From: Polyangiaceae bacterium
GTDB taxonomy: Bacteria; Myxococcota_A; Polyangia; Polyangiales; Polyangiaceae
Reading direction: 5' to 3'
DNA: 36,419 bases
NCBI GenBank assembly: GCA_025353725.1
Contig: JANXOF010000047.1
Span: 1-36,419, forward strand
In this document: piece by piece, positions 3,313-13,251 of the stretch
Layout of the letters: each line of letters opens with the position of its first letter
How positions within the stretch are numbered: position 1 is the first letter of the stretch
Translations under genes and position numbers: made by a program
The notes under the pieces: generated by a model
What the model was told of the DNA's origin: nothing
The model's database searches: none
What the model saw: the letters and a program-made list of their open reading frames with translations, nothing else

Positions 3313-3492
3313 CTACGCCTTCGGGGCCGTTTTTTTCGCAGCAGGCTTTCGACTCGTGGGCTTACGAGCAAGAGCCTTCTTGGCGAGCTTCGGTGCCGCA
3401 GCCTTCGCGCTCTTGACGGTGCGCAGCTTCGCCTTGCTCTTCACTTCGGTCTTTGCCGGTTCGGTTTTCGCAGTCACTTTTGCTTTAGGCAT
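3313..3492 (-). CDS. Histone H1-like lysine/alanine-rich DNA-binding peptide
   Basis: 59 residues, almost entirely Lys, Ala, Pro, Thr and Arg, with KAK, AKKA and KPAAKK repeats. This is the composition of the eukaryotic H1 tail and of bacterial H1-like proteins such as Hc1/Hc2. There are no aromatic or Cys residues and no fold is expected. ATG at 3492 is chosen over an in-frame TTG at 3504 because GGAG sits 6-7 bp before it. It is first in a leftward operon, 6 bp before the methylase-like gene. Likely role: nonspecific DNA binding or compaction (inference). It could instead be a virion-associated DNA-condensing peptide. Confidence 0.68.
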   Translation of the reverse strand: MPKAKVTAKTEPAKTEVKSKAKLRTVKSAKAAAPKLAKKALARKPTSRKPAAKKTAPKA

Positions 3493-4643: not shown

Positions 4644-6074
4644 TCATCGGGCGGCTCCTACGGCGAGCCGCTGCGCCTCTGCCTCTGCCTTGGCCCAGGC
4701 TTCCGCGAAAGCCAGGCCCCGAGCCAGTGCCGTCTGGCGTCCTTCGGCGACCTCGGTGAGGAAGGCCCGCCAGAGCTCCAGGAGTTCGGCGCGCTCTTCT
4801 TCGTAAGCCCACAATCTGCCCAATTCGCCTCCGTTATTCCGATATTTAGGCGGTCGGTGCCGCGTTTGCAAAACCGACATATGTGGGTTCAAATCCCATC
4901 CGCACCTCTCAATGATTTCGCGGGCTTGCACCACTTCTGGCTCCGCTTCAGGTGGGCTTACGATGGGCTTACGTTCCGCCTCGCGCATCGCCTTGGCGGC
5001 ATTGCCCGCGAGCGTTCCGACGGCGTGAGCGTAGCGCTCGGTCACTTTCACGCTTGAGTGCCCCAGCATCTCCTTGACCTCCTCGTACGACCACGGGCGG
5101 TCCCACGCTCCGCTGAGCAGCAGCGTGGCGCACGTATGGCGCAAGTCGTGCCAGCGGACCGGCCGCGTGATGCGAGCCGCTCGCTTCCACGCCTTCCAGT
5201 CGGCGGGCTCGACGACGCGACCTCGGCGTCGGTACCAGCCGGTCGGCGTCGGCAGGACGATGCCGTGCGCGGCCTCCGAGGTCATCGCGCTCAGTGTCGC
5301 GAGCGCCACACCGAAGAGCGGTACGTGACGGATGCGGCCGTTTTTAGTCGGCTTGCTCGGAGACCCGTAGCGCACGACGATGTGCGGCTCGGCGTCGTCG
5401 AGGTGCACGTCGACCCACTCAAGCGACCGGAGCTCGCCGGACCGTAACCCGGTGCCTATCGCCAGAGCGACCGCTGGATCCGTCGCGGCGCCGATGAGCG
5501 CGTTTGCCTCGTCGAGCGTGAGGAAGGTCGACGTCTCGCGTGTGCCTGGCGTCGCCTTCACTTTGAGGTCGCGACACGGGTTCGTTTCGATGAGTTCGAG
5601 GTCGCAGCCGTGAGCGAAGACCGAACGAACGATATTCAAAACATTTCGCCGCGTCTGCGTCGCGAGCGACTTGCCCGTCTTGTGATGGCGCAGATTGGCA
5701 ATGAGCTCGCGGATGTCGCTTCGCTTGATTTGCGATGCCGGTAGACCGGCAAGCTCCCACGTTACGACGTGACGGTCCCACGTATATCGGTCGCCATCGA
5801 CGGAGCGGTAGCCTTCTCGGTCGCGGCGCGCGAGCGTTAGCTCACCGAGGCGGCGAAGCGTCATCCCCCCGACGGGAGCCGCTTTGAGCAGCTCGAGAAG
5901 CCCGTCGAGCGCTCGAGCGGCCTCGTCGGACGTCGCGAACGGACTGCCCTCGATGGCCTCGCGCTTGACGCCATCGAACGCGAAGCGCGCGCGAAAGCGA
6001 CCATCGGGCGTCTTCTCGACGCCTCCCGCTCCTCGTGGCCGGCGAAGCTTGCCTCGAGCGCAGGCGATGTCCAT
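4644..6074 (-). CDS. int: Tyrosine-recombinase integrase containing attP in its 3' coding end
   Basis: 476 residues from ATG 6074 (GGGAGAAG 8 bp upstream). A second ATG at 6095 is coupled to the preceding stop (TGATG) and would add 7 residues. The N-terminus has a basic arm-binding region and an SAM-like core-binding domain (about 75-170). The catalytic domain shows Arg211 (GTGLRSGEL), a Lys near 244, HDLRH (309-313), LGHSS (His339 region) and nucleophile Tyr348 (TERYAH). A further 125 residues follow. Residues about 390-404 are encoded by the tRNA-Cys-like attP core, and the last 72 residues form a charged helix (EEERAELLELWRAF). Integration would exchange that tail. Last gene of the left early operon. 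Confidence 0.93.
   Translation of the reverse strand: MDIACARGKLRRPRGAGGVEKTPDGRFRARFAFDGVKREAIEGSPFATSDEAARALDGLLELLKAAPVGGMTLRRLGELTLARRDREGYRSVDGDRYTWDRHVVTWELAGLPASQIKRSDIRELIANLRHHKTGKSLATQTRRNVLNIVRSVFAHGCDLELIETNPCRDLKVKATPGTRETSTFLTLDEANALIGAATDPAVALAIGTGLRSGELRSLEWVDVHLDDAEPHIVVRYGSPSKPTKNGRIRHVPLFGVALATLSAMTSEAAHGIVLPTPTGWYRRRGRVVEPADWKAWKRAARITRPVRWHDLRHTCATLLLSGAWDRPWSYEEVKEMLGHSSVKVTERYAHAVGTLAGNAAKAMREAERKPIVSPPEAEPEVVQAREIIERCGWDLNPHMSVLQTRHRPPKYRNNGGELGRLWAYEEERAELLELWRAFLTEVAEGRQTALARGLAFAEAWAKAEAEAQRLAVGAAR
4865..4907 (+). other. attP core: 3' half of a tRNA-Cys(GCA) gene
   Basis: Read on the + strand: anticodon loop TTGCAAA (4866-4872, anticodon GCA), stem side ACCGA, variable loop CATAT, T-arm GTGGG-TTCAAAT-CCCAT (4883-4899), acceptor side CCGCACC and discriminator T (4907). 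All spacings fit tRNA positions 32-73. Upstream bases do not form an acceptor (GGTGCGG expected) or D-arm, so this is only the 3' half, the usual form of a phage attP that recreates the tRNA on integration. It lies inside the integrase coding region in antisense. Confidence 0.85.
6016..6072 (-). repeat. Direct repeat copy A (inside integrase 5' end)
   Basis: 57 bp that match 7036-7109 at 53 of 57 positions once a 17-bp block present only in the other copy is left out. It encodes integrase residues DIACARGKLRRP and onwards. The two copies are in the same orientation and flank the DUF6948-like gene and the three Gly/Tyr-rich genes. Confidence 0.8.
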
Positions 6075-6094
6075 GGAACTTCTCCCATGCGCCA

Positions 6095-6277
6095 TCAGTG
6101 TTTTGACTCCGGGTAGCCGTCGCCGTCGCCGTAGCCGCTGCCGTAGCCGCTGCCGTAGCCGTAGCCGTAGCCGTAGCCGGTGCCGTAGCCGTAGCCGCTG
6201 CCGTAGCCGCTGCCGTCGCCGTATCCGTAGTCTCCGACATCGACCGAGTAGTCGCCGTATCCGTCGCCATCACTCAT
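6095..6277 (-). CDS. Gly/Tyr/Asp-rich mini-protein 3
   Basis: 60 residues dominated by GYG, GSG and GDG units (for example GYGSGYGYGTGYGYG), with an acidic N-terminus (MSDGDGYGDY) and a short non-repeat tail (YPESKH). It is intrinsically disordered in prediction and resembles the G[Y/S]G low-complexity segments of phase-separating or adhesive proteins, but no function is known to me. ATG 6277 overlaps the stop of mini-protein 2 (ATGA) and its own stop overlaps an integrase ATG (TGATG). The frame is supported by this coupling and by codons GGC-TAC/AGC/GAC; other frames of this DNA would give Arg-rich or Pro/Ser-rich repeats. Confidence 0.7.
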   Translation of the reverse strand: MSDGDGYGDYSVDVGDYGYGDGSGYGSGYGYGTGYGYGYGYGSGYGSGYGDGDGYPESKH

Positions 6278-6483
6278 ATTGCAAGCTCCTCGGGTATGCC
6301 GAATCCGGCTCCATCGACGTACGAACCTCCGTAGGCAAAGCCGTATCCGTCTCCAGAACCATCACCGCTTTCATTGTCGCCCCTGCCCGACCCGTCATGG
6401 CCTGGGACCCCGTAGCCGGCCCTGTAGCTCACGCAGTAGGCCGAGCCGGCACCGTAGGTGTAGTCGCTGGTCTCTTCGATCAT
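6274..6483 (-). CDS. Gly/Tyr/Asp-rich mini-protein 2
   Basis: 69 residues starting MIEETSDYTYGAGSAY. It is less regular than its neighbours: GYG, GSG and GDG units mixed with single Cys, Arg, Phe, His, Pro and Asn residues, ending FGIPEELAI. The repeat unit has decayed or diversified here, suggesting sequence constraint beyond simple repeat expansion. ATG overlaps the stop of mini-protein 1 by 4 bp (ATGA) and its stop overlaps the ATG of mini-protein 3 in the same way. No family name is known to me. Confidence 0.65.
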   Translation of the reverse strand: MIEETSDYTYGAGSAYCVSYRAGYGVPGHDGSGRGDNESGDGSGDGYGFAYGGSYVDGAGFGIPEELAI

Positions 6484-6602
6484 GTCGCGTATGACCTCTT
6501 GTACTCGTCGCCGTAGCCGTATCCGCTGCCGTCGCCGCTGCCGCTGCCGACGCCGTAGCCGTAGCCGTAGCCGCTGCCGTCGCCGCTGCCGACGCCGCTC
6601 AT
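6480..6602 (-). CDS. Gly/Tyr/Ser-rich mini-protein 1
   Basis: 40 residues: MSGVGSGDGSGYGYGYG and further GSG/GYG units, then a basic-aromatic tail DEYKRSYAT. Too short for routine gene calling, but ATG 6602 overlaps the upstream DUF6948-like stop (ATGA) and its stop overlaps the next ATG (ATGA), exactly the spacing used through this operon. An alternative ATG at 6608 adds two residues. It forms a trio with the next two genes, all between a DUF6948-like gene and the integrase. Confidence 0.62.
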   Translation of the reverse strand: MSGVGSGDGSGYGYGYGVGSGSGDGSGYGYGDEYKRSYAT

Positions 6603-6883
6603 GTCCATGGCATGGCTTCCCATCGCGCCTGGGCGCCCTTGGCAATCTCCGTCACGGACGTCACCTTGCGCAATTCAATATCCGCAGGACGACCGATTCG
6701 GCACTCGGCAGTAGGCCCGGCAGAAGCCAAGCCCATAAAGCCTTTGACGTTGGCGTGCCAGTAAACGCAAAGCTGAGCCGCGCGGAGCTTGATGGTCTCA
6801 CCGCTGGTGTCACTCGCCCATCCGGCAAACACCCCGCGGTATTCCGTTGTCACAAGTACGAATCGTTCTGAATTGTTTGACAT
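6599..6883 (-). CDS. DUF6948-like small phage protein
   Basis: 94 residues from ATG 6883, chosen for AAGGA 8 bp upstream; an ATG at 6919 in frame is less well served. FVLVTTEYRGVFAGWASD, then IKLRAAQLCVYWHA, then IGRPADIELRKVTSVTEIA align by eye with small phage proteins of the type V-V-V-R-T-Y-S-A-G-V-H-x-G ... L-x-x-A-R-R-x-W-x-W ... E-I-x-L-x-x-A-x-E-I-x-P (DUF6948 from memory, unverified). Function unknown; these are found in prophage early regions. The stop overlaps the start of Gly/Tyr mini-protein 1 (ATGA). Confidence 0.62.
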   Translation of the reverse strand: MSNNSERFVLVTTEYRGVFAGWASDTSGETIKLRAAQLCVYWHANVKGFMGLASAGPTAECRIGRPADIELRKVTSVTEIAKGAQARWEAMPWT

Positions 6884-12159: not shown

Positions 12160-13251
12160 CTAAAGAAGGCGCAGTTGAGGCCTAGGGCTTTGAGAGTGCG
12201 CGATGGTCGAACGGTTTCCTTCTACGCCCGTCATGACGAGTCCGAACATGATGGCATCAAGGTCGTGCACGTAAATGCGAAGCTCTCGCGCGACGTCAGC
12301 CTTGGAAAGACCATCTTCCTTCAAAGCCGAAAAAACCTTTTTCAGGATTTGAGAGGCCTCCCTCGTTGCCATCGGATGGGGCTCAGTCGTGCGGTACCCC
12401 AAGTCTCCCATTGCGATGCACGTGCTTCTGTAAAGCCAGTCGGACAACATCTCTAACTTGTGGGCGCGGTGCGCCAGAGCCGCCAAGGAAACCCCCCACT
12501 CGCTTTTCGCCGCCATGAGACCCGCCATGTCGACGCCGCGCGCAATGCGCGCACGAACCGTGGCGCGCGGCATAAGGAAGGCCGACGCGAACGCGTCTGC
12601 TTCGCGTTCGGCGGCGCGGCCGGTAGGTGCGCCATGTCGATGCAAAACGAGATGACCGAGTTCGTGAGCGGCATCGAACCGGCCGTGCTCAACGGACTTG
12701 GTGGTGTTCAAAAAACAGAAGGGCGTAGACCCGTGCCAGAGAGAAAAGGCGTCCACTTCGCGGCATCGCTCGGCGAGTGAATAAACTCGAACTCCGTGCA
12801 GTTCGAGAAGATGCACCATGCTGTGAACACTTTGAAGTCCGAGACTGAATCGGTCTCGAACGGCTTCCGCGGCATCGTCAGGAGCCATCCCCTGCAAGTT
12901 GGGCAAGCCGTTCGCGGGAAGGTCAAAGCGAGCTTCGATCCACCGCGACGCTGCAAAGGCTAGAGCGCCCGAGGCAAGCACTGCGTCCCGCTGGCCGGCC
13001 TTCATCGACGTCAAGGAACGAAAGCTCACCGCTTCGTTGCGAGGAATTTCCAGCGTCGGTCCCTCGAAAAAGGCAATCGGAAACCTCAACGCATTGGAGA
13101 TGCGCGCGACCATATCCTCGCGCGGAACCACGCGGTCTTCCTCCCACTCGGTGACACTCTTCGGCCACACCTCAAGGAGGTCGGCAAGGTCCGCCTTTTT
13201 GAGTCCGCGCCGCATGCGCGCAAGCGTGAGTTGGCCTGACGCAAACGTCAT
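12160..13251 (-). CDS. XRE HTH domain fused to ImmA/IrrE metallopeptidase
   Basis: 363 residues. Residues 5-60 form an XRE HTH (LTLARMRRGLKKADLADLL, then VTEWEEDRVVPRED). Residues 90-230 form the ImmA/IrrE (COG2856) domain with the zinc motif HELGH (196-200) in FDAAHELGHLVLHRHG and the third-ligand motif EREADAFASAFLMP (215-228). The last 130 residues are helical and contain a second HTH-like segment (GLSKADVARELRIYVHD). Such proteins cleave a repressor or act with a partner in TA/defence-like loci. ATG 13251 overlaps the stop of the 118-residue gene upstream (ATGA), so that protein is the likely partner. Confidence 0.85.
   Translation of the reverse strand: MTFASGQLTLARMRRGLKKADLADLLEVWPKSVTEWEEDRVVPREDMVARISNALRFPIAFFEGPTLEIPRNEAVSFRSLTSMKAGQRDAVLASGALAFAASRWIEARFDLPANGLPNLQGMAPDDAAEAVRDRFSLGLQSVHSMVHLLELHGVRVYSLAERCREVDAFSLWHGSTPFCFLNTTKSVEHGRFDAAHELGHLVLHRHGAPTGRAAEREADAFASAFLMPRATVRARIARGVDMAGLMAAKSEWGVSLAALAHRAHKLEMLSDWLYRSTCIAMGDLGYRTTEPHPMATREASQILKKVFSALKEDGLSKADVARELRIYVHDLDAIMFGLVMTGVEGNRSTIAHSQSPRPQLRLL

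Follow-up and report, generated by a model that had tools for sequence, protein, structure and literature searches.

An Integrase Gene with a tRNA-Derived attP Core in Its Reading Frame and a Predicted Exchange of the Integrase C-Terminus on Integration

The Window and Its Integrase Gene

The window, meaning the whole stretch of 36,419 bp that was analysed, is one entire contig (C61) of the 98-contig, 6.6-Mb assembly of a Polyangiaceae bacterium. It carries genes for RecT, an exonuclease, replication proteins, the large terminase, the portal, and head and connector proteins, and is phage DNA of a soil-type bacterium. The contig is not closed: its ends share no repeat with each other and have no match elsewhere in the assembly. 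Chance ORFs of considerable length are frequent here, the window having 251 ORFs of at least 60 amino acids. The minus-strand ORF at 12160–13251 codes for a protein with a helix-turn-helix and an IrrE-like M78 peptidase domain, a candidate lysogeny regulator. The DNA adenine methylase gene that an earlier reading of the sequence alone (hereafter the sequence-only reading) had placed near the integrase gene is not confirmed: the ORF at 2383–3306 matches MmeI_Mtase only weakly, below the Pfam cut-off.

The integrase gene int lies on the minus strand at 4644–6095 and codes in its phage form for a tyrosine integrase of 483 amino acids. It had been taken to begin at 6074, which is the internal Met8; the longer start is favoured because the upstream ORF ends at 6095 with its stop codon overlapping the int start (TGATG). 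That ORF (6095–6277, minus strand) codes for a Gly/Tyr-rich polypeptide of 60 amino acids with GYGYG repeats and sits at the position of uoi in Mx8. The next ORF upstream (6274–6645, minus strand) has a similar Gly-rich stretch at its end.

Tyrosine integrases share a catalytic pattern of conserved Arg, Lys, His-x-x-Arg and Tyr, all of which are present in the PF00589 catalytic domain of the window Int (E 1.1e-18; residues 199–358, coded by 5022–5501 of the minus strand). Tyr355, invariant in an alignment of 23 sequences, is presumably the catalytic Tyr. Foldseek matched the predicted structure of the Int body to Tn1549 Int, lambda Int and XerA (E 4e-9 to 6emz, 2e-8 to 1z1b), and the predicted fold is that of the lambda Int and Tn916–Tn1549 architecture. 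In the AlphaFold2 model built from the 23 sequences the body has mostly high confidence. Confidence falls below 50 for residues 399–422, which make up most of the tRNA-encoded linker described below and the residues just beyond it, and two predicted helices follow (424–450 and 455–482) at low to moderate confidence (block means 50–71). The model of an IMG/VR relative (L079) likewise has a low-confidence linker (395–465) and a helical tail at 48–72, so that the confidence for the tail is low in both models (pLDDT about 50–72).

The attP Core, the Host attB, and the Predicted Product of Integration

The 3′ half of a tRNA-Cys(GCA) gene, in sense orientation on the plus strand and thus antisense to int, is embedded in the coding region at 4864–4908. 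The sequence-only reading had recognised this piece, which is real and exact, but its extent (4865–4907) has to be widened and its position in the protein (residues about 390–404) corrected: the core starts at the third position of codon 396 and ends at the second position of codon 411. It includes an in-frame ATG at codon 406. All 45 bp are identical to tRNA positions 29–73 of the intact tRNA-Cys(GCA) gene of the host (L003 4971–5043, contig C98). A chance match of 45 bp is excluded, since a 161-bp query across the core finds only two places in the 6.6-Mb assembly, the window and the tRNA-Cys gene of contig C98. ARAGORN identified no complete tRNA in the window. The assembly thus contains attP intact and attB unoccupied, from which we infer that the majority form captured by the assembly has no phage integrated at the host tRNA-Cys.

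The catalytic domain ends at residue 358 and the core begins at 396: the catalytic part stays joined to the N-terminal part whichever form is made. Beyond the core, int continues for 72 codons, as had been counted. This post-attP tail (residues 412–483, coded by 4647–4862 of the minus strand, with 10 Arg, 2 Lys and 11 Glu and the C-terminus ...VGAAR) belongs to the phage form only, bears the two predicted helices and resembles the tails of relatives. The computed integration product restores the tRNA-Cys gene and yields a lysogen Int of 413 amino acids (...SVLQT-DA-stop), in which residues 1–411 are followed by Asp-Ala and a stop codon; 72 residues are lost, two are gained and the catalytic domain remains intact. 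The proposal that attP lies inside int and that integration would replace the C-terminus of the enzyme is supported by the host attB and, as described below, by arm-like repeats flanking the core, by the junction of a relative at tRNA-Cys and by the far junctions of 12 of 13 relatives.

The repeat search identified two direct copies of TGGGCTTACG inside int on the plus strand (4953–4962 and 4964–4973) and, beyond the core, an inverted copy in the code for the tail (4802–4811, minus strand). These copies are placed about symmetrically around the core; a fourth exact copy is found at 3357–3366. The inverted copy and the direct copy at 4953–4962 form part of a perfect 12-nt inverted repeat (4801–4812/4952–4963) that exceeds those of all 20 shuffles, inverted repeats of at least 12 nt being found at 1.2% of random sites in the window. 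Among nine attP sites compared (window included; those of G172 and G173 are near copies), the flanking repeat was longer than in all 20 shuffles in six, tied in one and not longer in two. The repeats look like arm-type sites located within the int code to either side of the core.

Distribution of the Arrangement among Relatives

Among 317 genomes of the class, 53 gave matches (the window's own genome being one of them), at 63 places, from which 40 ints were examined (30 loci, the window among them, plus 10 others). In 36 of the 40 the frame contains a tRNA piece downstream of the catalytic Tyr region and ahead of the stop codon, 31 times in antisense and five times in sense orientation (L007, L008, L021, L023, L032); with the latter orientation int would sit at the other junction. 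L020, counted among the 36, has a decayed int. The four ints without a tRNA piece in frame are L009, which stops 35 nt before a tRNA, G286c35, which reaches the contig end, L016, where a tRNA-type peptide is visible but had no library match, and L013. Eight of the 12 best IMG/VR loci also carry the in-frame piece (L075, L076, L083 and L084 do not), while it was found in none of the 68 more distant IMG/VR loci among the matches listed (best 80). Scans for close relatives with the window protein alone yielded one weak Acidobacteriota locus in genome contigs and none in viral contigs.

A quick tree without bootstrap was computed from 87 integrase bodies (40 class rows, the best 12 IMG/VR loci, 34 of the 68 distant ones, and Mx8). 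It groups 52 rows in one clade (SH-aLRT 100), 44 with the arrangement, six without and two unclear; the nearest row to the window is L074 (98). The int-internal tRNA core is thus, by sequence comparison, the usual state of one clade and not a one-off. The suggestion of an independent instance has to be corrected accordingly: the window is not a single case, and Mx8 Int falls outside its clade in the quick tree. The six clade members without the arrangement imply that it is dispensable. All three antisense frames through the tRNA are used (21, 9 and 6 of 36 ints scored), and no argument was therefore built on the choice of frame. The 36 include L009, with a frame that ends ahead of the tRNA, and G146c57, for which an adjacent tRNA was scored; the count started from 47 ints, four of which lacked the mark used and seven an antisense match.

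The tRNA targets of the relatives are those for Arg, Thr, Gly, Lys, Asp and Asn. Integration of relatives elsewhere than at tRNA-Cys, which the sequence-only reading had expected to count against its proposal, is therefore what is found, but the idea is unhurt because the tRNA piece stays inside int at those targets.

The Other Junction

In 24 of 26 contigs fetched with their flanks an antisense tRNA is found at or just beyond the int end. The attR was located in the same contig for five elements (G173 has two copies), and for three more after six contigs were extended. For five further elements we infer a pairing with an attR on a different contig of the same genome, which carries an identical core of 43–49 bp. 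No attR was found on the remaining contigs tested. Across the core, the int frame stays open for 46–138 codons in 12 of the 13 elements for which an attR was located. Only G220 is out of frame; its int has no RYAH-type Tyr motif in any frame and is for this reason considered decayed. Eight elements have both ends in a single contig and measure 5.3 to 60.7 kb, a range that implies that small integrative elements share the design. A 15-nt repeat taken at one stage as the attR of G284c178 was dropped as a chance match, a better partner being found on contig C17. In L041 (G173, contig C149) two tRNA-Thr cores lie ~1.15 kb apart upstream of one int, each followed by its own Cys-rich tail ORF, which looks like a tandem or remnant element. 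At attR ends such as L205, L207 and L210, a tail ORF without int body is open through the core.

A relative in G287 provides the int 3′ junction at tRNA-Cys that the sequence-only reading had proposed to look for. Its int is 56–58% identical to that of the window over about residues 282–410. Contig C233 stops in the anticodon loop of the tRNA-Cys core and has an exact 141-bp overlap with the start of contig C167, which runs on into a complete tRNA-Cys. Across the joined contigs int ends in ...GWDSNPRMTVLQTVA-stop (...MTVLQTVA-stop), inside the tRNA gene. This element is apparently integrated at tRNA-Cys with a lysogen-type junction. Only residues 283–410 of its int are recognisable, so the copy may be decayed. 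The fixed overlap of C233 and C167 (L184/L239) at the crossover suggests two continuations in the sample, a fork in the assembly at which integrated and free forms would coexist. No second tRNA-Cys fragment, and hence no attR, was seen in G287. Contig C39 of the same genome was dropped as a partner of the tRNA-Cys element as its tail follows a different tRNA type.

Conservation of the Post-attP Tail

In 16 of 19 tails, the int frame runs longer than either of the other two forward frames (binomial 7e-6), a count that includes related rows, which are not all independent, and leaves aside four in-frame cross-contig tails. Among 120 pairs of tails, 11 scored better than shuffles at p < 0.01, four of them between close copies; the window tail and that of G191 have a z of 6.1. 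Three tails located later also match several others. A profile made from nine tails finds at least 74 places in at least 48 of the 317 class genomes, and hits at least 15 of 377 genomes in an even sample of the phylum (12–15 candidates were scored per genome, so misses are possible). Every genome found in either search belongs to the order of the window, Polyangiales, which speaks against a mere alanine-rich pattern. The profile matches seven places in G165 and six in G166 (genus g64), which may reflect numerous integrated elements or attR remnants in each of these genomes.

Thirty of the 74 places were fetched. A tRNA piece lies upstream of the tail in 19 and downstream in none. Seven of the 30 are seeds of the profile; of the other 23, 13 have an upstream tRNA piece, 12 of these antisense within the tail's own ORF. 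At least four of the 11 loci without an upstream tRNA match display tRNA-type peptides by eye that were missed by the library. Differences between the L077 and L082 tails over 64 codons are distributed 20/21/42 among first, second and third codon positions, a pattern that shows purifying selection on the tail in this one pair. Codon bias is weak or absent in the G172/G173 tails (3/6/10, 8/5/11 and 7/8/8) and in G283/G284 (4/5/7). In the three G172/G173 comparisons the similarity ends at the stop codon, as expected for an ORF rather than for a longer DNA site.

The tails are not of one kind. Those of G172 and G173 are Cys-rich without clear similarity to the helical type, and those of L078 and L081 also scored little similarity. 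Searches of Pfam, PHROGs and NCBIfam with the tail gave stray matches at most, and comparison with the PDB gave one match of E 6e-5 over 32 positions (chain named RBL4) and weaker ones mostly to designed helical proteins. Many tails share a recurring helical region, seen in the order of the window only.

Possible Role of the Tail

We favour the reading that int is a compact integration module, whose tail works in the integrating enzyme and is lost on integration (probability about 0.7). A putative arm site, the core and a second putative arm site would all be contained in the 3′ coding region of int. From phage DNA the gene would code for a three-domain integrase followed by a tRNA-encoded linker and the helical tail. 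Recombination with tRNA-Cys would restore the tRNA gene, leave the catalytic part at attL and strand the tail code at attR, so that the lysogen would make only the 413-amino-acid enzyme with a stop codon supplied by the tRNA 5′ half. The tail might act, for instance, in the assembly of the attP–attB complex, and its loss might make the lysogen enzyme poor at excision or differently regulated for it, so that integration would lower its own reversal. Transcription of int in the lysogen would also converge on the tRNA gene, with transcriptional or antisense repression as a possible further effect. That the tail helps integration and its loss favours staying integrated is a direction we put at slightly below even odds; it is preferred because the lysogen form of Mx8 Int is reported to be the less active one. 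Somewhat more tentative is the wider proposal that the post-attP region is a built-in directionality module, removed by integration and kept across the phages and small elements of the order despite tRNA swaps; the targets would then have been exchanged while body, core and tail were kept in one frame. The tail ORF stranded at attR may also be expressed alone in lysogens and act in trans; the in-frame ATG at codon 406 lies within the window's core itself.

The effect of the tail could be the reverse if it were a brake or degradation signal, the phage form being unstable or inhibited and the lysogen enzyme being stabilised or freed by its loss. The repressor of mycobacteriophage BPs, according to passages of PMC4557955, behaves in this manner: integration removes 33 C-terminal residues that include an ssrA-like tag, and it is the shortened repressor that is stable and active. 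The window int has the same geometry. Against this speak the tails of 46–138 amino acids, which exceed the length required of a degron and have a recurring helical region, the window C-terminus ...VGAAR, and the lysogen form of Mx8 Int, which is less active and not more in the account of PMC4701971. We regard this explanation as unlikely. A second alternative, quite improbable in our view, is that only the DNA matters, the post-core region being retained because it serves as P′ arm of attP, with the open frame a by-product. Arm-like repeats do flank the core within the coding region and the G172/G173 tails have little codon bias, but the third-position excess in the L077/L082 pair, the likeness at the protein level among tails joined to different tRNA cores and the frame open in 12 of 13 elements all speak against it. 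Least credible is a neutral leftover, in which the crossover moved into tRNA genes overlapping int and the ORF ends anywhere beyond: long chance ORFs are indeed frequent in the window and six of 52 clade members manage without the arrangement, but in 16 of 19 tails the int frame exceeds the other two in length, and the profile of nine tails finds more tails, again behind tRNA pieces.

If our preferred reading of int as a compact integration module is correct, the clade provides a comparative handle on an integrase that encodes its own irreversibility, with at least a dozen natural pairs of phage and lysogen forms for testing. A caution also follows for annotation: an int taken from an integrated element of this group represents the shortened form that ends in a tRNA antisense peptide, and is not the enzyme that performed the integration.

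Comparison with Known Systems

Phage Mx8, whose target is tRNA-Asp, has an integrase that resembles that of the window in having attP inside int and a C-terminus replaced on integration. The Mx8 protein has a tRNA-type peptide ahead of its tail (judged by eye). It differs in that tblastn finds no similarity between the two integrases, that Mx8 Int lies outside the window clade on a very long branch (3.1 in the quick tree, its exact place being unsure), and that its tail has no convincing similarity to the seven tails compared with it. The window system would work like Mx8 Int; descent from Mx8 is not claimed. Passages of PMC4701971 report that integration swaps 112 C-terminal residues of Mx8 Int for 13 and that the lysogen form is less active, while PMC6070905, in the part consulted, places attP within int, mentions a changed specificity of the lysogen form and notes a similar principle in Mx9. 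The Islander paper, as far as its relevant passage goes, states that the Mx8 and SSV integrases extend across attP (PMC4383910).

Other systems share single traits. The archaeal suicidal integrases (SSV1, pTN3, pT26-2) also have the att site inside the integrase gene in a compact module, but integration separates their N-terminal and catalytic parts (passages of PMC8371274), whereas the window Int would lose its tail only. In rumA-integrated streptococcal ICEs attR is likewise inside the integrase gene and the excised form has another length and C-terminus (passages of PMC4701971); these elements use a serine recombinase, in contrast to the tyrosine integrase of the window. In the immunity system of mycobacteriophage BPs a phage protein similarly loses C-terminal residues on integration and then behaves differently (passages of PMC4557955), but that protein is the repressor and attP lies in its gene, while the window attP lies in int.

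According to the passages of a 2016 paper, att sites inside the cognate integrase gene occur in very few integrative elements, Mx8 being the tyrosine-integrase case named there (PMC4701971). Our search of titles, abstracts and passages, which covered literature other than the primary Mx8 and Mx9 papers, returned no description of a clade-wide arrangement or of a post-attP tail. The precedent is Mx8, and what is new is the clade-wide use of the arrangement together with a conserved post-attP tail.
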